Part shown: positions 17,618 to 60,711 of the stretch, piece after piece | Numbering within the stretch: position 1 is the first letter of the stretch | Layout: each line of letters starts with the position of its first letter | From: Thiomicrorhabdus sediminis | GTDB taxonomy: Bacteria > Pseudomonadota > Gammaproteobacteria > Thiomicrospirales > Thiomicrospiraceae | DNA length: 64,000 nt | Reading direction: 5' to 3' | Assembly (NCBI RefSeq): GCF_005885815.1 | Contig: NZ_CP040602.1 | Location: forward strand, 1,999,630 to 2,063,629 | Translations under genes and position numbers: made by a program | Notes under the pieces: generated by a model | Databases searched by the model: none | What the model saw: the letters and a program-made list of their open reading frames with translations, nothing else | Told to the model about the DNA's origin: nothing

Positions 17618-19173
17618 TACTGCAACCCTTGGGTTTGACTAATTCCACTAATCGGGTCTACCGACGGCATAGACGGCAATAATGGAGGTGAGTTATAGAG
17701 TTTTAATTCAATATCGGTAAAATCAATGACTTCATAGTTTGCGGTAGTGGCAACAGTGAAATTAATTTCGACTTTACCGTTTTCATCGGCAGTCACAATA
17801 AAGTTTTCCGAAGTATTCCAGTAATCGACATAGGTCGTCACCGTATCTCCGCTAGAGACATATTGCCAGGACTCATTACCACTGGCGTCCATCACCGGAA
17901 CCCACCCCGACTTCGGTGACACATAACTGGTCTGCTCATAGCCTTGTTGAGAATTATCGGTATAGTCATAAGCGTACTGAACCTTTTCTGTACCGTTAAT
18001 CGCCACAGAAGCCTGATCACTGGTAACTGAATCTCTGGGCGAAGACGGCTGATCCCAAGAACCTTTCGCATGAGTTTTAAACGACACCACAATCTCTTTA
18101 TTGGCGGCATCGGCACCGAAATCGAACACCTGGCTGATACTGTCGGATTGCGCGGCGTCGGTTCCCACATTGGTCCCGATACCACCAACGGTATTGTCTC
18201 CCATATTCTTTAAGTCATTACCGGTCAATACAGTATTACTGTCACCGGTTACTGAGACATAGGTGACCGAGGCTTCAAAGCGCTGCGGCTTCTTCAATTC
18301 TTGACCAGAAATCGTTACTACAGAGTCATCAAAAAACGGACTTTTGGAATAGTTTTTTTCTACAAAAACCGCATCATTATCTGCATTCTCCGCCTCATCG
18401 GCGATTAAACCTAAATGACTGTTACCATTTTCGTTTTGCGACAACAACACGACAACAAGACCTTCGGCAACAATATCAGCGCAGTCACTAGCTGCGCACA
18501 ACATTAAATTATTTGCGCCCAACTGCCCTTTGACCGGCAAAGTAGAGTTATCAAATGCCGGTAACGCCTTACCGGGATATACCTTACTCGGAGGAAGGTC
18601 AGGAATCGGATCTCGATTGAAAAAACACGCCGAATCGGTTGGACAATCCAACAAATCATCGGCTTGCGTTGCACCGGCATCGATTGCATAAACAAACGGA
18701 TTGCCCCAAGCATCTTCAACATCTGCCGCCGACAAACCAAGCATTTCATATGGCACAGTACCCGAAGCCGTGGTACACACGGAAACATCAATATTGGGAA
18801 TGGCTGGTTGCGCAGGTGTCGCGGGCACTGCCGGAATGGTTGGCGCGGTATCGGTTTTAGGAATCGCAGGTGTCGCTGGAATCGCTGGAATCGCTGGAAT
18901 CTTACCTTTTTCGGTCTGACGCGATTCATAGCCTAGACCATTCACATCAGGACAAGGTAAAAATTTATTTTCATCTGCAAAATCCAGTAAAGCCGTTTTC
19001 ACCAAATTGAGCTTGGCTTTACTGCCTAACCACTCGGCATTGACTTTCTGCTCGGAAAAACTCAATAAAGAACCGATGGCAATTAGGCCGACAATGCCCA
19101 AAACAATGGTCAGCTCCAGCAATGAAAACCCATACTGCGCCGAGTGATGTGGGGATATTTTGGTCTGTTTCAC
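17617..19173 (-). CDS. Prepilin-like protein with an Ile-Pro-Ala repeat insert
   Basis: A 518-residue prepilin: leader MKQTKISPHHSAQYG, then FSLLELTIVLGIVGLIAIGSLL with Glu at mature position 5. The locus motif is PCPDVNGLGYESR (residues 73-85), with fewer acidic residues than in its relatives. Directly after it, residues about 92-127 are a Pro/Ala/Ile tract (IPAIPAIPATPAIP and variants) absent from the paralogues, likely an extended linker. Shared segments GTVPYEMLGL, VVVLLSQNENG and FFDDSVVTISGQELKK follow. The C-terminal 200 residues look beta-rich and have no RTX-type repeats. It overlaps both neighbours by 1-4 bp, so it is tightly coupled. Confidence 0.82.
   Translation of the reverse strand: MKQTKISPHHSAQYGFSLLELTIVLGIVGLIAIGSLLSFSEQKVNAEWLGSKAKLNLVKTALLDFADENKFLPCPDVNGLGYESRQTEKGKIPAIPAIPATPAIPKTDTAPTIPAVPATPAQPAIPNIDVSVCTTASGTVPYEMLGLSAADVEDAWGNPFVYAIDAGATQADDLLDCPTDSACFFNRDPIPDLPPSKVYPGKALPAFDNSTLPVKGQLGANNLMLCAASDCADIVAEGLVVVLLSQNENGNSHLGLIADEAENADNDAVFVEKNYSKSPFFDDSVVTISGQELKKPQRFEASVTYVSVTGDSNTVLTGNDLKNMGDNTVGGIGTNVGTDAAQSDSISQVFDFGADAANKEIVVSFKTHAKGSWDQPSSPRDSVTSDQASVAINGTEKVQYAYDYTDNSQQGYEQTSYVSPKSGWVPVMDASGNESWQYVSSGDTVTTYVDYWNTSENFIVTADENGKVEINFTVATTANYEVIDFTDIELKLYNSPPLLPSMPSVDPISGISQTQGLQ
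18860..18901. repeat. 9-bp tandem repeat coding for the Ile-Pro-Ala tract
   Basis: The unit GGAATCGCT is repeated in tandem, with perfect copies at the right end and degenerate copies extending left to about 18795. Because the unit is 9 bp, copy-number changes would lengthen or shorten the protein linker without breaking the frame. Confidence 0.8.
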
Positions 19174-41584: not shown

Positions 41585-42388
41585 TCAAACGAATTGAACC
41601 GCTTTAAAAAAGGCCATCTGCGCCATGGCAACCTGCTGTAGGTTATTTCCCACTATAGCAACCAAACCGCCTTTAATCGGTATCAACTCACCATGCATTC
41701 CACTAGACTCGAAAGCCTGTAATGACTCCATCACCGCACCAGGCAACACAATAATGGTGACCGGTTCATCGAACTGCTGAACCACAAGATGTAAACCTTT
41801 TCTGCCTTCAACATCACAAATGCCGGCATAGCTCATTCCATCTAAAGGCTGATGCAAAGAAGCGTTCACTGAAGCGAACAACTGCTGTAATTCAGCCTCA
41901 CTTTGCGGTAAACGTTTATTAGCCATCAGGCTAGGGTCTTCTTTAATATGCGCCAATATATGATGCACGACCTGACTACCCTGTAGATTGGCGGGGGTCA
42001 TAGGGTTAAAAATCAGCAACACACTAACCAGAAACAGCGATGCCACCATAGCCATAGCCGTCCAATTGAGTCTCTTATCGGCGATTTCAATAGCCGTATC
42101 ACTCTGTTCGTTTGTCAGCGAAGTTGGCGAATGTTTTGCGGCTAAGGGAGTTAAGTCCGGTTCATGATCGGTCGGAATAAACTGCTGATAACTCTGGTTA
42201 AGCAGGATTCTGGCGTGCAAACCCTCGGGCACCTCAATATCCAAAGCCTGACTGATATCTTGATCCAATTCACGCGCTTTTTTGAGCACCGCTTTTTTTT
42301 CAGGATTTGCCTGCAAATAACACAATAGCTCTTCATCAAGCTGATATGGATTAATCATTATCTGAGTTTGAAAACGAATATCATTCAT
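41585..42388 (-). CDS. DUF3379-like putative anti-sigma factor
   Basis: About 267 residues: a cytosolic N-terminal part (YQLDEELLCYLQANPEKKAVLKKARELD), one membrane helix (WTAMAMVASLFLVSVLLIF) near residue 125, and a periplasmic C-terminal domain. This layout and position match DUF3379 proteins, which pair with ECF sigma factors. There is no zinc anti-sigma motif. ATG at 42388 overlaps the sigma-factor gene by 8 bp and has GGGGGTG upstream. Role inferred from partner and topology. Confidence 0.75.
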   Translation of the reverse strand: MNDIRFQTQIMINPYQLDEELLCYLQANPEKKAVLKKARELDQDISQALDIEVPEGLHARILLNQSYQQFIPTDHEPDLTPLAAKHSPTSLTNEQSDTAIEIADKRLNWTAMAMVASLFLVSVLLIFNPMTPANLQGSQVVHHILAHIKEDPSLMANKRLPQSEAELQQLFASVNASLHQPLDGMSYAGICDVEGRKGLHLVVQQFDEPVTIIVLPGAVMESLQAFESSGMHGELIPIKGGLVAIVGNNLQQVAMAQMAFFKAVQFV

Positions 42389-42902
42389 AATCACCCCCAG
42401 TTTTGCGCTGTGGCTGCTCACTGTGCATCATCTGTTTCAATTGTTGGCGTGCTCGGAATAATCGGGTGTTCACCGTCGCCAATTTAAGGTTTAATTCTTT
42501 AGCAATCTCTTCCCCGCTAAAGCCCCACATCACTTGTAGGATTAACGGCTCTTTATACTCGGTGGGCAATTGCAACATCATTTGCTGCACTTGTTCTTTG
42601 GCCAATCTTTCGCTTGGCTCATTAGCGCTGTCATCGGCCACCAAGCCTTCTTCAATCTCTAAAATCTGCGGTTGGTATTTCTCATACAGACGAGCGTTTT
42701 CACGGCGTAGGATAGTGACCAACCAAGCTTTGGCGGCTTTTTCATCCTTGAGACTTTCAATCGATTTCCAGGCACGTGAGAAGGTTTCCTGCACCAAATC
42801 CTCAGCCACTGTAGGTTGCTTACACAACCAAAAGGCATATCGATACAAGTCATTGGCATAGGCCGATACCAGCTGTTCAAAAAAACGATGTTTATGTGGC
42901 AT
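42381..42902 (-). CDS. ECF-type RNA polymerase sigma factor
   Basis: A 173-residue sigma70-family ECF protein. Region 2 is seen in YRYAFWLCKQPTVAEDLVQETFSRAW, and region 4 in LPTEYKEPLILQVMWGFSGEEIAKELNL with TVNTRLFRARQQLKQM. It is translationally coupled to the DUF3379-like gene. ATG at 42902 with GAGG upstream. Target promoters are unknown; no obvious autoregulated promoter was identified in the 100-bp spacer. Confidence 0.92.
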   Translation of the reverse strand: MPHKHRFFEQLVSAYANDLYRYAFWLCKQPTVAEDLVQETFSRAWKSIESLKDEKAAKAWLVTILRRENARLYEKYQPQILEIEEGLVADDSANEPSERLAKEQVQQMMLQLPTEYKEPLILQVMWGFSGEEIAKELNLKLATVNTRLFRARQQLKQMMHSEQPQRKTGGDYE

Positions 42903-46006: not shown

Positions 46007-49000
46007 ATGACTGAAAAACAATGGCAATTCTGGATCGACCGCGGCGGCACCTTTACCGATATTATCGCTTTGGACCCCAAAGGCGAACTGCACACCCACA
46101 AACTGCTTTCGGAAAACCCGGAACAATATACCGATGCGGCCATTGCCGGTATCCGCCATTTTTTAAAACTAGACAAAACAACAAAAATTCCTGCCGCAAA
46201 GATTGCCAGCGTAAAGATGGGCACCACTGTTGCCACCAACGCTTTACTGGAACGCAAAGGCGATGTTACCGCTCTTCTGACCAATCAAGGTTTTGCCGAT
46301 GCATTGCAAATCGGCTACCAGCATCGCCCGGATATTTTTGCACTTAAAATCGAACGCCCTTTACCGCTGTACCGTGAAGTTATCGAAGTTCCAGGAAGAC
46401 TTGATGCCACCGGTCATGAAATCGAAAAGCTCGATAAAGCGAAAACATTGCAAGCGTTACAAAACCTGTTTGATCAAGGCTATCGCAGCTTGGCGATTGT
46501 TTTTTTACACAGCTATCTGAATGACCGACATGAACAGCAAGTCGCTGCCTGGGCCAAACAAATAGGCTTTCAACAGGTTTCCACCTCGGCGGCCACTTCA
46601 TCTTTGATTAAATATGTTTCACGTGGAAGAACTACCGTAGTCGATGCCTATTTAAGCCCTATTTTAAGGCGCTATGTTGAGCAGGTTGCAGCCGAACTAC
46701 CCGGGGTTGATTTACAGTTTATGCAATCGTTTGGCGGTTTAACGTCAGCCGAACAATTTCAAGGAAAAGATGCCATTCTTTCCGGGCCGGCAGGCGGTAT
46801 TGTCGCCGCGGCCAAAACCGCAGAGCAGGCAGGACTTAACAACATCATCGGTTTTGACATGGGCGGCACCTCAACCGATGTATCGCATTACGCCGGTCAA
46901 TTCGAACGCAGCTTCGAAACCCAAGTCGCAGGTGTGGAAATGCGGGTACCAATGCTTGACATCCATACGGTGGCGGCCGGTGGCGGGTCAATTATTAGCC
47001 GCTTGCATAATGAGTTACGTGTCGGCCCGGAATCCGCCGGGGCCAACCCTGGACCTGCCGCCTACAGACGAGGCGGCCCTTTAACCGTTACCGATGCCAA
47101 TGTTTTCTTAGGCCGTATCCAAGCTCAACATTTTCCTAAGGTGTTTGGTGAGAAAGCCGATCAAGCGCTTGATACCGCTACGGTTGCCGAGCAATTTACC
47201 GATTTAGCCAAACAGCTTCAGATGAGCCCTGAAAAACTTGCCGAAGGCGCTTTAAGTATAGCGGTTGAGCATATGGCTAATGCCGTACAGAAAATTTCCG
47301 GCGAACGCGGTTATGATGTCGCCGATTATACCTTGGTCAGTTTTGGTGGCGCAGGCGGCCAACATGCCTGCGCCGTTGCCGATAAACTCGGCATGACCTC
47401 GATCCTGCTGCATCCTTATTCGGGAGTCTTATCGGCTTATGGCATGGGCTTGGCACAAAAGCGGATCATTGAAACCGAATCTTATAACCTGCCTTTGACA
47501 CAGATCTCAGCCAACAGCTTTACACAGCAGCTCCACCAGCAAATCCGTAAAGCGACAATCCAACTTGAAGCACAAAACGACTCCTTACAGACGCAGAACA
47601 TCCAGCTCCACCTGCAATACCAAGGTAGTGATACCTTGTTGGATATAAGCTATGCCGATGATTTAAGCGTTGCGGATTACCTGCGCCAATTTGCTCAACA
47701 ACACCAACAAGAATTCGGTTTTATACAAGGCGACACGCCGGTAATGATCAATAGCGTCAGTGTTGAAGCGATAGGCCAGTCACATCAGCAGCAACTATCG
47801 CTAACCCATAGAAACAGCCGACAAGCTGAACCGATCGATAACTGCCGCTGTTATTTAGATGGCAAATGGCAGCAGATACCGCTTTATCAACGAGGTGACT
47901 TAGGCTCTGCTCAAACGATTAATGGCCCGGCATTGATCTTGGAACCCACCGGCACCCTTCTTGTCAGCCCAAACTGGCAAGCCCAGCTGCAGGCCGATGG
48001 TCAACTGCTGATGACCAAGGAATCAATTGCCGAACAATTACCGTTGAATAGGCAGGCCGCCAGATCAGACGCTGATCCGGTGCAACTGGCACTGTTTAAT
48101 AGTCGCTTTATGGCGGTTGCCGAGCAAATGGGAGTGACTCTGGCAAAAACCGCGCACTCGGTGAATATCAAAGAACGACTCGATTTTTCCTGCGCTTTAT
48201 TTGATAAAAACGGCCAACTAATCGCCAATGCGCCGCATGTGCCGGTACATCTTGGATCCATGGGCGAATCGGTGAAAACGGTTATTCAAAAAGCGTCTAA
48301 CAATGCGATTGGAGCCCTAAAACCGGGCGACGCCTATGTGCTCAATAATCCCTATGCAGGCGGCACTCACTTGCCTGACGTCACCTTGATTTCTCCGGTA
48401 TTTGTCGATGATAAGCTAGCGTTTTTTGTCGCCTCACGGGGTCATCATGCCGATATAGGCGGTAAAACACCCGGCTCAATGCCCGCAGACAGCCGCCATA
48501 TCAAAGAAGAAGGCGTATTGCTCGACTGTGTTTTAGCGGTTAAACAAGGTCAGTTACAGCGATCCGAATTAGAAAAAATCCTATTAGAAAGCAAGTATCC
48601 GGTCCGCAATCTCAAACAAAACCTGAATGATTTACAGGCACAAATTGCGGCCAACCAGCAAGGTATCAACGGCCTCAACACGCTATGCAAACAATTCGGT
48701 CTGCAGACGGTGAGTCGTTATATGGACCATGTTTTGGATCATGCCGAAAACGCGGTGAAAAACCTAATCAATGAACTATCCGATGGTGAGTTCTGTTACC
48801 AGACAGATCAAAACACGGAGGTCTGCGTAAAGATCACGGTCAATCACCACCGGCAAACAGCCAGGATTGATTTCAGCGGTACCAGCTTACAGCAATACAA
48901 TAATTTCAATGCGCCCTATGCCATTACCCGAGCGGCCACTCTTTATGTCTTGCGCACGCTGGTCAACCAACCGATCCCACTCAATGACGGTTTTCTACGG

Positions 49001-49624
49001 CCGATAGATTTACAGGTGCCTGCAGGCAGTATGCTCAACCCTGACTATCCTGCCGCGGTGGTAGCCGGCAATGTGGAAACCTCACAAGTGGTCACCGATA
49101 CTCTTTATGGTGCCTTACAAATTCAAGCCGCTTCACAAGGCACGATGAACAACCTTACTTTTGGCGATGACACTTGGCAATATTATGAAACCATTTGCGG
49201 AGGCACGGGCGGCGGTATTGATTACAACGGTTGTGATGCCATTCATAGTCATATGACCAATTCACGCTTGACCGACCCAGAAGTGTTGGAATTACGCTAT
49301 CCGGTTCGCTTGGAAACTTTTGCCATTCGCAAAAATAGTGGAGGAAACGGCCTGTTTAAAGGCGGAAACGGCTGCGAAAGGCACTTTAGGTTTTTAAAAC
49401 CCATGACCGTTTCGATTCTTAGCAATCATCGCAAAGTTGCGCCTTATGGCATGGCCGGCGGAGCAGACGGTAGCTTAGGTAGACAGTATGTGATCAAGGC
49501 TGATAACAGCATGAGCGTGGATCTTGCCAGCACCATCACTCTAGAAATGAAAGCTAATGATACCTTGGTTATGCAAACGCCCGGGGGCGGTGGCTATGGT
49601 TCGGCCACAGCTAAAGACAAATAA
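46007..49624 (+). CDS. ATP-dependent 5-oxoprolinase (HyuA-HyuB fusion)
   Basis: A 1205-residue cytosolic enzyme joining both hydantoinase/oxoprolinase halves. HyuA-like part (1 to about 690): WIDRGGTFTDIIALDP, DMGGTSTDVSHY and GGAGGQHACAVADKLG. HyuB-like part: LFNSRFMAVAEQMGVTLAKTAHS, RGHHADIGGKTPGSMP and the C-terminal TPGGGGYGS. It opens 5-oxoproline to glutamate with ATP, part of glutathione turnover. The length matches full-size oxoprolinases. It stands alone, convergent with the RiPP locus, with only 4 bp between stop codons and no terminator there. Confidence 0.93.
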   Translation: MTEKQWQFWIDRGGTFTDIIALDPKGELHTHKLLSENPEQYTDAAIAGIRHFLKLDKTTKIPAAKIASVKMGTTVATNALLERKGDVTALLTNQGFADALQIGYQHRPDIFALKIERPLPLYREVIEVPGRLDATGHEIEKLDKAKTLQALQNLFDQGYRSLAIVFLHSYLNDRHEQQVAAWAKQIGFQQVSTSAATSSLIKYVSRGRTTVVDAYLSPILRRYVEQVAAELPGVDLQFMQSFGGLTSAEQFQGKDAILSGPAGGIVAAAKTAEQAGLNNIIGFDMGGTSTDVSHYAGQFERSFETQVAGVEMRVPMLDIHTVAAGGGSIISRLHNELRVGPESAGANPGPAAYRRGGPLTVTDANVFLGRIQAQHFPKVFGEKADQALDTATVAEQFTDLAKQLQMSPEKLAEGALSIAVEHMANAVQKISGERGYDVADYTLVSFGGAGGQHACAVADKLGMTSILLHPYSGVLSAYGMGLAQKRIIETESYNLPLTQISANSFTQQLHQQIRKATIQLEAQNDSLQTQNIQLHLQYQGSDTLLDISYADDLSVADYLRQFAQQHQQEFGFIQGDTPVMINSVSVEAIGQSHQQQLSLTHRNSRQAEPIDNCRCYLDGKWQQIPLYQRGDLGSAQTINGPALILEPTGTLLVSPNWQAQLQADGQLLMTKESIAEQLPLNRQAARSDADPVQLALFNSRFMAVAEQMGVTLAKTAHSVNIKERLDFSCALFDKNGQLIANAPHVPVHLGSMGESVKTVIQKASNNAIGALKPGDAYVLNNPYAGGTHLPDVTLISPVFVDDKLAFFVASRGHHADIGGKTPGSMPADSRHIKEEGVLLDCVLAVKQGQLQRSELEKILLESKYPVRNLKQNLNDLQAQIAANQQGINGLNTLCKQFGLQTVSRYMDHVLDHAENAVKNLINELSDGEFCYQTDQNTEVCVKITVNHHRQTARIDFSGTSLQQYNNFNAPYAITRAATLYVLRTLVNQPIPLNDGFLRPIDLQVPAGSMLNPDYPAAVVAGNVETSQVVTDTLYGALQIQAASQGTMNNLTFGDDTWQYYETICGGTGGGIDYNGCDAIHSHMTNSRLTDPEVLELRYPVRLETFAIRKNSGGNGLFKGGNGCERHFRFLKPMTVSILSNHRKVAPYGMAGGADGSLGRQYVIKADNSMSVDLASTITLEMKANDTLVMQTPGGGGYGSATAKDK

Positions 49625-49628
49625 TGAG

Positions 49629-50450
49629 TTAAACTTGGCTGACAATGCCTTTGGCCATTAATTGCTGCAGGGTTTGTTTGGCGAACTCTTGCAAAGCCTT
49701 TTGATCAAGCTCTAGGCCCTGACTGATTGCCTCCAACGCCGACTCGGCCGATTGATGATCATTTAAAGCGACCAACCATTGATACAGCAAAGGTGTTAAT
49801 TCAATAAATTCAATGCTGTCTTTTTGAATATTGCTTACCGGTTGACCGGCATCCATCTGTGCGCATTGACGATAAACCAACAAGGTCGTAGCCTGTTCCG
49901 GCTCCTCGGGTTGATAATCTGCTGCCAATTGATGTACCGGCCATTGATAGGCCAAAGGCAACGCCAGTGGCGACAACTCGAATTTGGCCGTCAAATCGAT
50001 GTTTTGCCAAGGTATCTGACAGGCAATCAAATCCTCCTCTTCGGAGACCGACAACACCAATTCAACCCATTCATAATGCGCCAATTCCAAAAAAAATTCG
50101 GGGTCTGTCGGTTGTGGTGAAAATTCATTGTCCAAAAAATCAAGAAACTCCCCGGCTAGCTCATGAAAAAGCGGTGTTTGCGCATTATGTTTAACAAGGA
50201 ATTCTCGACAAATTTGCTGCCAACGATGCTCACCAATAATCGCTTTACAAACAGGAAACACCTGACTGAAAAGACCATAAAGATTATTGAAAAACAGTTC
50301 GGCGTAGATATCCAAACGACGCTGTTCAATCTCTAAGCCATGCTCAGGCTTGTAAGCCCGGTTTTCGGGGTCTCGAATATAGTTTGAAAGCTGCTGTTGC
50401 AGCTGCTGAAAAGGCAAAAGTTCAGGTTTTTCTGAGAATTGTTCTGACAT
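49629..50450 (-). CDS. DUF2063 (HvfC/BufC-type) partner protein of an MNIO enzyme
   Basis: A 273-residue protein with the DUF2063 N-terminal domain: FQQLQQQLSNYIRDP, RRLDIYAELFFNNLYGLFSQVFPVCKAIIGEHRW, and FLEFLDNEFSPQ-like stretch, ending in a winged-helix-like region. In HvfB/HvfC and BufB/BufC systems this protein joins the MNIO enzyme as a peptide-binding partner. It starts 25 bp after the MNIO gene stop. The older annotation as putative DNA-binding protein is unlikely in this context. Confidence 0.85.
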   Translation of the reverse strand: MSEQFSEKPELLPFQQLQQQLSNYIRDPENRAYKPEHGLEIEQRRLDIYAELFFNNLYGLFSQVFPVCKAIIGEHRWQQICREFLVKHNAQTPLFHELAGEFLDFLDNEFSPQPTDPEFFLELAHYEWVELVLSVSEEEDLIACQIPWQNIDLTAKFELSPLALPLAYQWPVHQLAADYQPEEPEQATTLLVYRQCAQMDAGQPVSNIQKDSIEFIELTPLLYQWLVALNDHQSAESALEAISQGLELDQKALQEFAKQTLQQLMAKGIVSQV

Positions 50451-50475
50451 AAGATTGCTCTTTAAGCGTTACTCT

Positions 50476-51333
50476 TTAGGCGGCTTGTTGCTTAGCGGCT
50501 TTCTGGTATCGGCGAATCTGCTCCACTTCCAGCATCAACTCGTCAAGTGGAGGAATATTGAAATCCCTTTCCAATAGAGTCGGCACAACACCATGAGTTG
50601 CGTAGGTCTTTTCCAGTAACTGCCAGACTTCTTGCTTAACCGGTTGTCCGTGGGTATCGACTTTCAGGTCATCGGCTTCATCAAAGTGTCCTGCCATATG
50701 CAAATAGACAATGCGCTCGCTTGGCATGGACTGCATATAGTTTTCAGCATCGTATTTATGGTTGATGGAATTGACATAGGTGTTATTGACATCGAAAAGC
50801 AAATCGCAATCGGCTTCGTCCAAGACCGCGTTGATAAATTCCAGCTCAGTCATTTCACTGCTGGGCATGGCATAAAAGGAAACGTTTTCGATTCCGATTT
50901 TGCGTTCGAGCACATCCTGAACTGTTCGAATTCTTTCCGCGACATAATGCACTGCATCCTCGGTGAAAGGGATCGGCATCAAATCATATAAATGACCGCT
51001 ATCGCCGCAATAACTCAAATGCTCTGTAAAGGCACGGATATCATGCCGCTGAAAAAAAACCTTCAGCTTTTTGATATAGTCGATATCCAGTGGTTTAATC
51101 CCCCCCAGATCAAGTGACAAGCCGTGACAAACAAACGGATAGCGCTCCGTCAAAGTTCTCAGTTGACGGCCCTGGCGGCCTCCGAAATTAAGCCAGTTTT
51201 CCGGTGCAATTTCCATAAAATCGATATCAAAGTCTGGCTGACGCAACACCTCATCGAAAAAATCACGTCTCAATCCCAAGCCGACGCCATGCACCGGATA
51301 ACTTCTAACGGGATTCTTGGCAAGTTTACTCAT
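50476..51333 (-). CDS. MNIO (DUF692) RiPP-modifying iron enzyme
   Basis: A 285-residue TIM-barrel protein with DUF692 features: HGVGLGLRRDFFDEV, DFMEIAPENWLNFGG, FVCHGLSLDLGG, FTEHLSYCGDSGHLYDLMPIPFT and LLFDVNNTYVNSINHKYD, which carry the His, Asp, Glu and Asn ligands of its multinuclear iron centre. Such enzymes oxidise cysteine side chains in peptides to oxazolone/thioamide or thiooxazole groups. Its likely substrate is the Cys-rich peptide encoded just upstream. The ATG at 51333 has AGGG upstream. Confidence 0.9.
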   Translation of the reverse strand: MSKLAKNPVRSYPVHGVGLGLRRDFFDEVLRQPDFDIDFMEIAPENWLNFGGRQGRQLRTLTERYPFVCHGLSLDLGGIKPLDIDYIKKLKVFFQRHDIRAFTEHLSYCGDSGHLYDLMPIPFTEDAVHYVAERIRTVQDVLERKIGIENVSFYAMPSSEMTELEFINAVLDEADCDLLFDVNNTYVNSINHKYDAENYMQSMPSERIVYLHMAGHFDEADDLKVDTHGQPVKQEVWQLLEKTYATHGVVPTLLERDFNIPPLDELMLEVEQIRRYQKAAKQQAA

Positions 51334-51460
51334 GATTGCAACCCTGTTGACTCTGTTTAATGAAAAAGGAATCTGCTTTCAGAAACACTGAAAAATAAAA
51401 TGGTTGGGTTTGCTCTCTATCAAACGCTGATGGAAATCAAACCGAACCTTTTTATAAATT

Positions 51461-51484
51461 GGCAAGACACCAAAGATGCTTGCC
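51461..51484 (-). other. Hairpin between the precursor and MNIO genes
   Basis: GGCAAG and CTTGCC close a stem whose inner part CATC-TTT-GGTG also pairs, with one bulged base. No U run follows, so it is more like an RNA processing or partial-attenuation element than a terminator. Confidence 0.5.
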
Positions 51485-51510
51485 ATAAGTTGGTACTGAG
51501 GCCGTAAAAC

Positions 51511-51837
51511 TTAAGACATATTACCGCCGCACTTACCTTCACCGCATTTCATTTCCGGCTGTTTAGGCGCTGGCTGGCCACCACAACGCCCTTCCGGTTG
51601 TTTAGGTGCTGACTGGCCACCACAACGCCCTTCCGGTTGTTTAGGTGCCGGTTGACCACCACACTTACCTTCAGCGGGTTTCGGTGCGGGCTGCCCCCCA
51701 CACTTCATTTCTGCCACTTGCGTATAACCGGCATCCATTTTCTTAAAACCAAACGGGTTTTCAGCCGCCGATGCCACTCCGGTCGAACCAACCATTGCCG
51801 CACCCGCTAACTTTAAAAAGTCTCTACGTGTCTTCAT
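51511..51837 (-). CDS. Cys-rich RiPP precursor (HvfA/bufferin-like) with Tat-like signal
   Basis: A 108-residue peptide. Signal: MKTRRDFLKLAGAAMVGSTG, with RRDFLK matching the twin-arginine motif, and cleavage expected near ASAAENP. NPFGFKKMDAGYTQVAE follows, like the NPF segment of HvfA-type precursors. The rest has six cysteines (46, 59, 72, 85, 98, 103), each in ExxCG context (EMKCGG, EGKCGG, EGRCGG), four 13-residue units GGQPAPKQPEGRC-like, then CGEGKCGGNMS. ATG at 51837 has GGAGAG upstream. Likely modified at Cys by the adjacent MNIO enzyme into a copper-binding peptide (inference from family). Confidence 0.88.
   Translation of the reverse strand: MKTRRDFLKLAGAAMVGSTGVASAAENPFGFKKMDAGYTQVAEMKCGGQPAPKPAEGKCGGQPAPKQPEGRCGGQSAPKQPEGRCGGQPAPKQPEMKCGEGKCGGNMS
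51547..51702. repeat. Four 39-bp tandem coding repeats in the precursor
   Basis: Each unit codes for one 13-residue block from one cysteine to the next. Units share most bases (CCACAACGCCCTTCCGGTTG recurs) and the length is a multiple of three, so copy number can change without frameshift. Confidence 0.85.
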
Positions 51838-52004
51838 TACTCTCTCCATAATGTATTTTATGTTATCAAACAGGCCATCAACGGTTTGATAAACCCACTT
51901 AACAAGACCTATTATGTAATCTTTTATTTCAAAAAATTCTTACAAAATAATGAATTTAGCGAACAGTGCTAACTAGAGATTGCAAAAATAGGATTGTCTA
52001 CAGG

Positions 52005-52562
52005 CTATGCTCTGACCAAAGAGCGTTCTACCTTTTGTCGCATCTCATCACCTCGTAATTTCACAATCAACAATAAAGCAAAATCCATCGCTGTCCCAGG
52101 CCCTCTAGAGGTAATAATGGCGCCGTCTTCGACCACCGCCTGGTCAACCCAGTCATACTTAGCGTTTTGATCTAACTGCAAGGCGCCGGGATAACTGGTG
52201 ACCTGTTTGTTATCCAGTAAACCCGCTGTTTGCAAAACCTTAGGAGCGGCACAAATCGCTGCGGCGAAGCCTCCTTTTTCGACCGTTTGTTGTAGCTTTT
52301 GTTGCACTCTGGTATCTGCATTCAGATAATCGGCTCCCGGCAACCCGCCTGGTAAAACCACCATGTCGTAATCTTGTTGTAACGCCTGATCCAAAGTCAT
52401 CTGTGCAACCAACTGCACGCCACGGCTTGCGGTAATCACTCTTTCATTGTCAAGGCTCGCGGTGACCACTTCGATATCAGCCCGAACCAGCAAGTCAATA
52501 ATCGTTACCGCTTCAAGTTCTTCACAACCTTGCGCCAGTGGCACCAAAACTGTTTTTTTCAT
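52005..52562 (-). CDS. DJ-1/YajL-family protein
   Basis: A 185-residue DJ-1/PfpI-superfamily protein: LVPLAQGCEELEAVTIIDLLVRA at the N-terminus, VVLPGGLPGADYL, and the nucleophile elbow AAICAAPKVL with Cys and Glu16-type partner, then TSRGPGTAMDFAL. Closest to YajL/DJ-1 chaperone-like or glyoxalase-type members. GGAGGAGG precedes the ATG. It follows ctpA after a terminator, so it has its own promoter or receives read-through. Confidence 0.9.
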   Translation of the reverse strand: MKKTVLVPLAQGCEELEAVTIIDLLVRADIEVVTASLDNERVITASRGVQLVAQMTLDQALQQDYDMVVLPGGLPGADYLNADTRVQQKLQQTVEKGGFAAAICAAPKVLQTAGLLDNKQVTSYPGALQLDQNAKYDWVDQAVVEDGAIITSRGPGTAMDFALLLIVKLRGDEMRQKVERSLVRA

Positions 52563-52596
52563 TTTGCCTCCTCCAGCCGACTTTCACACCGGCAAT

Positions 52597-52635
52597 AAAA
52601 AACCACCTATCCAACATACATCAGATAAGTGGTTT
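52597..52635 (-). terminator. Terminator after ctpA
   Basis: Stem AAACCACCTATC / GATAAGTGGTTT with one mismatch and U-rich sequence on the minus strand. Confidence 0.7.
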
Positions 52636-52666
52636 CAATCAATAGCAGTGCGCCGGAGCGCAAATC

Positions 52667-54001
52667 CTATTTTTGCATTTTTTGCGCGATCGCCATCGCC
52701 TTAACCAAACGTAAGGCTTCATTCAATTCGAAATCTCGCTCCAATGCCTTATCGACATCAGAAACTTTGGACTTCTTGTCAACTCCATCGGTTTTTTCAG
52801 AATCACCGTTTTCTAGGTGTCCGGCCAAATCCTTCTCTTTGACATTGATCAAATCGTCTTTGTTAAGTTTTTCCACCTTAACCAGATCGATCTCCACATC
52901 AGGCTTAATACCTTCAGCCTGAATCGAGCGTCCGGAAGGCGTGTAGTAACGAGCGGTGGTGACTTTGATTGCCGCGCCGTTATTGAGTTGTAATAGCGTC
53001 TGTACGGAGCCTTTACCGAAACTGGTGCGTCCCGCGATGACCGCACGTTGCTGATCCTGTAAAGCACCGGCGACAATCTCAGAAGCCGAAGCCGAACCCT
53101 CATTAATCAAGACAACAATCGGCTTACCATTCAACATATCGCCATTAGCCGCCTCAAAACGCATTTGTGAATTTTGAATACGGCCTTCCGTATAAACAAT
53201 CAGCCCGTCATCCAAAAAGACATCGGAAACCTGAACCGCAGCATTCAAAACCCCACCCGGGTTATTACGCAAATCAAGAACCAGCCCCTGAAGTGGCTCA
53301 TTATTTTCTTTTTCAAGTTTCAATAAAGCACTGACCAAATCATTTCCGGTACGCACTTGGAATTGACTGATACGCACATAACCGACACCGTCTTTGAGCA
53401 TTTTCTGCTTAATGCTTTTAACCTTGATCACGGCACGGGTGATCTCAATTTGCAACGGCTTATCTTCGCCCTTACGCACGATAGTCAGCTTTAATTTGGT
53501 GCCCGGCTTGCCACGCATGATTTTAACCGCTTCACCCAGGGTTTTGCCTTTGACCGGCTCCGATCCCAACTTAATGATTAGATCACCTGCTTGAACGCCC
53601 GCTTTTTGCGCCGGGGTGTCATCAATAGGCGAAATGACCTTTACAAAGCCGTCTTCCATACCGACTTCCATACCAAGACCGCCAAATTCACCTCGAGTAT
53701 GCTCTTCCATCTCTTTGTAATCGGTTGGCGGTAAATATGCAGAATGAGGATCCAAACTGGAAAGCATGCCGCTAATCGCGCCTTCCAATAATTTTTTATC
53801 GTCGATTTCATCAACATAATCGTGAGAGACGCGTTCGAACACTTCGACAAAAGCGCGCAGTTCCTGTAAAGGAATCGCCTTTTCAGTGTCTTGCGCTTGA
53901 GGTTCCTTATCAGCCCATACGGTAGTCCCAACCGCAATGAAAATCCCCATAACTGTACCCGATAGCACGAGCATGAACTTGGTTAACCTTGATGAATGCA
54001 C
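52667..54001 (-). CDS. ctpA: C-terminal processing protease CtpA (S41 family)
   Basis: A 444-residue periplasmic protease. N-terminal anchor/signal (FMLVLSGTVMGIFIAVGTTVWA), PDZ domain (GLGMEVGMEDGFVKVISPIDD to GDLIIKLG), then the S41 core with catalytic Ser in NEGSASASEIVAGAL and Lys in SFGKGSVQT. Cleaves C-terminal regions of periplasmic targets, including cell-wall enzymes. The start is GTG at 54001 with GGAG six bases upstream. The C-terminal tail is charged. Divergent from the arsR-like gene. Confidence 0.94.
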   Translation of the reverse strand: MHSSRLTKFMLVLSGTVMGIFIAVGTTVWADKEPQAQDTEKAIPLQELRAFVEVFERVSHDYVDEIDDKKLLEGAISGMLSSLDPHSAYLPPTDYKEMEEHTRGEFGGLGMEVGMEDGFVKVISPIDDTPAQKAGVQAGDLIIKLGSEPVKGKTLGEAVKIMRGKPGTKLKLTIVRKGEDKPLQIEITRAVIKVKSIKQKMLKDGVGYVRISQFQVRTGNDLVSALLKLEKENNEPLQGLVLDLRNNPGGVLNAAVQVSDVFLDDGLIVYTEGRIQNSQMRFEAANGDMLNGKPIVVLINEGSASASEIVAGALQDQQRAVIAGRTSFGKGSVQTLLQLNNGAAIKVTTARYYTPSGRSIQAEGIKPDVEIDLVKVEKLNKDDLINVKEKDLAGHLENGDSEKTDGVDKKSKVSDVDKALERDFELNEALRLVKAMAIAQKMQK

Positions 54002-60495: not shown

Positions 60496-60711
60496 TTAGT
60501 ACATACGTGTTGTACGACGGTTCTCACGAGCTAGACGCTTAGCTAGACGCTTAGCCGCCGCCGCTTTCATACGCTTTCTAGCCCAAGTAGGCTTTTCATA
60601 GAACTCGCGCTTACGAGTTTCTGTTAGAACGCCTGCTTTTTCACAAGCACGCTTGAAACGACGTAAAGCTACGTCAAATGGTTCAGTATCTCTGATTTTT
60701 ACGCTTGGCAT
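60496..60711 (-). CDS. rpsU: 30S ribosomal protein S21
   Basis: A 71-residue basic protein with the S21 pattern: [26 protein letters not shown] and [20 protein letters not shown] at 60711 has AGG eight bases upstream; the longer in-frame extension is spurious. It heads the rpsU-yqeY-dnaG-rpoD group and is divergent from tsaD. Confidence 0.98.

Follow-up and report, generated by a model that had tools for sequence, protein, structure and literature searches.

The 39-bp tandem repeat of Thiomicrorhabdus sediminis analysed here lies in a gene that, judged by sequence, is an HvfA/captophorin-type RiPP precursor, encoding a small peptide predicted to be exported and to bind copper. At a probability of about 0.75, we explain it as an HvfA/captophorin-type array that is modified by HvfBC, probably exported by Tat and driven by an ECF factor, with units that vary in frame. 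The gene identity, the neighbours, the variation in site number among relatives, the Tat-type signal and the common motif were read directly, while the chemistry of the sites, their binding of copper, the route of export, the regulator, the way in which units mutate and any fitness effect are deduced.

The repeat array and its gene neighbourhood

TRF detected a period-39 array at 51553-51702 of the window (the whole 64-kb stretch of DNA analysed), in which four 39-nt copies were found without gaps. The initial annotation had described four 39-bp units with one ExxCG site each, and this proved correct, the array occupying 51556-51711 in codon register. The features of the locus are as follows:

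51511-51837, minus strand: hvfA-type precursor gene, 108 aa, ATG at 51837 with GGAGAG before it
51766-51837, minus strand: twin-arginine type signal peptide TRRDFLK...ASA (TIGR01409 20.7 bits, cut-off 16.7)
51712-51765, minus strand: conserved NPF...GY segment from an alignment of 15 genus leaders, presumed HvfC-binding leader
51556-51711, minus strand: four-unit array, one E-x-[K/R]-C-G site per 39-bp unit
51673-51711, minus strand: U1, 39-bp unit in codon register, one E[GM][KR]CG
51634-51672, minus strand: U2, likewise
51595-51633, minus strand: U3, likewise
51556-51594, minus strand: U4, likewise
51526-51555, minus strand: tail pair EMKCG-EGKCG, sites 5 and 6
51574-51609 and 51613-51648, no strand assigned: 36-nt exact direct repeat at a 39-nt offset
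51905-51931, minus strand: promoter-like motif TGAAATAAA-N13-GGTCT, 67 nt before the hvfA start codon
50476-51333, minus strand: hvfB, MNIO maturase (NF003818 434.1 bits, cut-off 360; PF05114 350.3 bits)
49629-50450, minus strand: hvfC, partner protein (NF050145 231.3 bits, cut-off 142)

The precursor is thus laid out as a signal peptide, the NPF...GY segment and six sites (EMKCG, EGKCG, EGRCG, EGRCG, EMKCG and EGKCG), namely those of the four array units plus the tail pair, which was absent from the initial annotation. The period-39 self-match reached 95/117; shuffling the codons of this gene 2000 times never gave more than 54, and no other place in the window exceeded 50. Thus, the array is not a product of chance. 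Because 39 bp equal 13 codons, each unit encodes 13 residues with one site, and its gain or loss keeps the frame, as had been proposed. The high identity ascribed to the units applied to U3 and U4 (92.3%) but not to the other pairs (79.5% for U2-U3, 76.9% for U2-U4, 69.2% for U1-U2, and 64.1% for both U1-U3 and U1-U4). Any two units were 3 to 14 nt apart, and all six pairs included silent codon changes, 2 to 6 per pair. Similarly, the proposed recent expansion fits U3 and U4, with the 36-nt exact repeat at a 39-nt offset, but not the remaining units. Slippage or recombination could plausibly act on this exact repeat. Other short tandem repeats in the window lie at 18860-18901 (9 bp x 4.7 copies) and 60529-60555 (12 bp x 2.2 copies).

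The precursor matched the HvfA-family domain NF050137 (35.1 bits, cut-off 19.5); its score against the strict HvfA equivalog NF050188 was 23.6 bits, below the cut-off of 95, and therefore we did not file it as strict HvfA. The other marks of the broad EGKCG-type captophorin/HvfA group were present, including repeated KCG-type core motifs, adjoining HvfB and HvfC, and HvfX in the genome. The hvfB and hvfC genes lie downstream of hvfA, and hvfB matched PDB 3bww with an E of 3e-72. The DoxX-like hvfX (NF050144 217.7 bits, cut-off 80) is unlinked and lies elsewhere in the genome, a single contig of 2,373,486 bases. The NF050137 match, the adjacent hvfB and hvfC, and the copper binding that passages of PMC13097082 and PMC13419390 report for such peptides support, via the family, the initial view of the cysteines as metal-binding. 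No Rfam family reached its gathering score in 49000-53000. With a 16-row alignment, AlphaFold2 gave no confident precursor model (mean pLDDT 50.5, pTM 0.12), and so a beta-helix is neither backed nor excluded.

Across the genus, hvfB at an identity of at least 73%, hvfC above cut-off and an RR-type precursor occurred in the same 17 of 32 genomes. The precursor matches (E 2.3e-28 or better) arise partly by construction, because the profile was built from 15 such leaders; the co-occurrence of hvfB and hvfC is independent of that profile. An 18th hvfB match, in G013, is only distantly related (38%). G017, G018 and G025 each carry a second MNIO gene (L023, L021 and L022) that is likewise distant, at 35-39% identity to hvfB, with a weak HvfC-like partner next after each. 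G026 carries three RR-type precursor-like genes (L115 2498-3190 and L113 2427-2777), two of them in tandem and each of this tandem pair preceded by its own copy of the promoter-like motif.

Site number in relatives and modification of the units

The initial annotation had suggested counting units in related strains; a count of sites among relatives, made at the level of the genus and beyond, revealed 2 to 11 CG sites per hvfB-linked precursor of the genus (17 precursors, own included, leaving out the second RR-type gene in G026 and the orphan genes described below) and in-frame block differences between close genomes. The annotation had regarded a constant unit number and silent divergence among units as evidence against its reading; the silent divergence is there, whereas site number varies among the relatives compared. 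Linker similarity was 0.66 within arrays (n=120) versus 0.36 between species (n=1960), a difference reached in 0 of 1000 label shuffles, with linkers of at least 2 residues compared and kinship between species left uncorrected. An array common to the relatives by descent was unsupported, as the linkers are species-specific.

We then compared 19 pairs of genomes, chosen by eye as close or instructive. Site number was unequal in 14 pairs and equal in 5 (L142/L143, L039/L041, L030/L033, L034/L035 and L010/L005). The equal pairs count against the variable-unit explanation, as does L039/L040, where the difference is a Cys-to-Phe change and not a unit. L037 is one 51-bp unit apart from both L039 and L041 (16 versus 14 sites; hvfB 96.8 and 97.9%); L037 and L039 are both titled Pseudoalteromonas shioyasakiensis, and are draft assemblies from a collection that includes a single genome for each species. 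L042 and L045, both MAGs, are 138 bp apart (8 versus 14 sites, hvfB 95.0%), the arrays of L136 and L137 are rebuilt (9 versus 8 sites, hvfB 95.9%), and L015 and L018 differ by a 15-bp insertion and two of 3 bp (6 versus 7 sites, hvfB 85.0%). Whole in-frame blocks therefore separate some close genomes at the level of the deposited records, several of which, as drafts or MAGs, may contain collapsed repeats. Passages of earlier papers already describe a variable EGKCG repeat number in the family (PMC12452194) and a Cys number of five to eight within one genus for Microbulbifer MmrA (PMC12538549).

As to the modification, passages of PMC13419390 state that HvfBC oxidises six Cys of H. influenzae HvfA. 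The related FonBC, according to parts of PMC13097082, tolerates Arg, Ala and Thr at position 3, wants a small residue at position 5 and is blocked by Pro inside the motif. The sites in the window fit these rules, their Pro residues sitting in the linkers. The same source reports that a two-repeat peptide, but not a one-repeat peptide, was modified by FonBC in vitro, which counts against full modification of the Pro-linked single-site units found here. Possibly, then, only the tail pair is modified, and the single-site units are spacers or unmodified thiols. Against this, five of the 17 genus precursors (G006, G008, G011, G026 and G029) have no tandem pair and still keep hvfB and hvfC. Thus, lone sites are probably accepted by the modifying enzymes, and we consider modification restricted to the tail pair quite unlikely.

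The peptide could also be an unmodified, metallothionein-like Cys-rich peptide. This would agree with the precursor-like KCGxxKCG genes of G005, G009, G010 and G030, genomes in which searches with the hvfB (E up to 1e-20) and the hvfC of this locus gave no match. One orphan of G030 (L111 2610-2948, G030:C5) even has a hydantoinase gene on one side and a DJ-1 gene on the other, where hvfABC is found here, but without hvfBC. However, the signal of the orphans is not of the RR type and their leader lacks the GY, and in the window hvfB and hvfC adjoin the precursor, which makes a metallothionein-like peptide very improbable. Among the matches listed, the literature on metallothionein repeat number concerns mainly yeast CUP1. 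Orphan genes at L109 and L110 adjoin ECF-sigma-like genes, and those at L108 and L112 adjoin a DoxX-like and an ECF-sigma-like gene.

For the modified array, a different unit number may change binding capacity, which the initial annotation supposed might vary between strains; the sequences analysed and the literature passages showed no tie between array length and copper tolerance. Unit number might instead be effectively neutral, with any array above a minimum working and the variation being mutational noise. Within one genus, functional systems are found with anything from 2 to 11 sites, and linkers drift freely between species, as neutrality would predict. The CG sites nevertheless persist while linkers change, which suggests that the sites themselves are under selection, although it does not speak for selection on how many there are. 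We therefore regard a neutral unit number as a serious contender, albeit one we lean against.

Signal peptide and promoter-like motif

We read a cleavage after residue 24 of the precursor from the AxA pattern. The twin-arginine model TIGR01409 matched all 18 RR-type precursors of the genus (E up to 0.05) but 0 of 31 comparison precursors, comprising 26 from outside the genus (with clear starts, hand-picked from candidates) and 5 orphan genus genes. A leader profile matched 13 of 30 other genomes of the order (E 5.3e-16 or better); all 13 loci carry RR, with hvfB within the examined stretch in 11, ruling out an RR signal limited to this genus. The genome also encodes tatC. Bufferin and oxazolin precursors are described with Sec signals in passages of PMC12452194; here, the twin-arginine model was matched instead of a Sec-type signal. 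The term "twin-arginine" is absent from PMC12452194, PMC13419390 and PMC13097082, and no earlier Tat report appeared among the matches listed, although one may exist elsewhere in print.

The RR motif might be incidental, the peptide leaving by Sec like its published relatives. Its own Tat-model score is modest, only a few bits over the cut-off, and that against Pfam TAT_signal (16.8) fell below the cut-off of 22.7. However, all 15 aligned genus leaders and the 13 further order loci retain RR-x-F-L, which is missing from all 46 loci with a precursor-like ORF in a wider regex count for the twin-Arg motif over 79 loci (L026-L104); the other 33, including the one Hydrogenovibrio locus, had no such ORF. 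Export by Sec thus appears unlikely, and the signal points to Tat as the probable route.

The promoter-like motif was found in 24 of 31 order loci when upstream stretches of at most 250 nt were scanned, with 2 mismatches permitted in its first part and five variant forms of its second part. In the genome, TGAAATAAAN{11,16}GGTCT has two copies (0 for the reversed control), one before hvfA and the other 27 nt before hvfX. A looser pattern gave 27 sites in 19 of 32 genus genomes, as compared to 12 control sites. Fifteen of these precede HvfA-type precursors, one hvfX, three sulfoxide-reductase-type genes (L174, L175 and L177), two a gene for gluconate dehydrogenase subunit 3 (assigned by Pfam in L160 and by likeness in L180), and six something else or nothing. 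The downstream gene of L177 has MsrA and MsrB domains, and that of L175 is a molybdopterin oxidoreductase, which we take, by resemblance, to be MsrP; the L174 gene was assigned by likeness to L175. According to passages of PMC7907618, msrAB and a DoxX/COG3220/DUF2063 cluster of H. influenzae are under the control of RpoE2, an ECF factor. By analogy, an ECF-type regulon with a putative sigma factor likely drives hvfABC plus the unlinked hvfX.

The window contains an ECF sigma gene at 42381-42902 (NF009170 244 bits) with a DUF3379 neighbour (41585-42902 together, minus strand), about 9 kb from hvfA. Its product is a possible hvfA regulator; no motif copy lies in front of this gene. A sigma-70 scan of 49500-52700 gave 3 matches (shuffle mean 3.7), and terminator-like sites in the same region numbered 8 (shuffle mean 4.0, sd 2.0).

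Proposed mechanism and relation to known systems

Our explanation implies the following sequence. The peptide would be made in the cytoplasm and presented by HvfC to HvfB, which would convert the Cys of the ExxCG sites to 5-thiooxazoles. The modified product would then be exported, probably by Tat, and bind copper in the cell envelope, while an ECF-type stress regulon would drive hvfABC together with hvfX. Slippage or recombination would add and remove units without disturbing the frame, and the units would be homogenised within each lineage, so that site number would come to differ between lineages.

We tentatively suggest, at somewhat less than even odds, that an order-wide move from Sec to Tat lets HvfBC finish all sites before export and frees array length, making unit number an evolvable dose of copper sites under the ECF regulon. 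If so, copper would perhaps already be bound before the membrane is crossed, array length could change without a race against Sec, and the regulon would also take in hvfX and the methionine sulfoxide reductases of some relatives. Captophorin export and the metal number per peptide are poorly understood. In a lineage with a Tat-type signal on hvfBC-linked precursors, nature provides a way to ask whether the peptide must be modified or loaded with metal before it is exported, and close relatives that differ by in-frame blocks at near-constant hvfB would allow site number to be related directly to copper tolerance.

By its genes, the system is a known kind of copper-handling peptide system with a Tat-type signal and 13-residue, Pro-linked single-site units. 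As far as the literature was searched, three features are new, namely the Tat-type signal in the order, the Pro-linked unit of 13 residues and the occurrence of the motif before the unlinked hvfX as well. The following comparisons draw on passages of the cited papers. With HvfA/oxazolin of Haemophilus influenzae, it has in common a signal peptide, repeated EGKCG sites, HvfB and HvfC, and HvfX (PMC13419390, PMC7907618); the hvf operon there is under an ECF sigma factor (PMC7907618). In contrast to H. influenzae HvfA, which has three AEGKCGEGKCG motifs with six Cys and hvfABC with the DoxX-like HvfX, the precursor described here has Pro-linked single-site units, a Tat-type signal and an unlinked hvfX. 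Buf_EGKCG/oxazolin precursors similarly show a variable EGKCG repeat number beside MNIO and DUF2063 genes but have 17-residue repeats with two sites, a Sec signal and, for one member, a beta-helix model (PMC12452194), as opposed to one site per unit and the low-confidence prediction obtained here. The fontiphorin FonA/FonBC system likewise has EGKCG sites, and its enzyme accepts Arg at position 3, as in our EGRCG sites; FonA differs in its tandem repeats, a single one of which went unmodified in vitro (PMC13097082). Last, Microbulbifer MmrA resembles the present precursor in its conserved leader and its Cys number variable within a genus, and differs in its two-Cys cassettes, with no Tat-type signal mentioned in the passages of PMC12538549.
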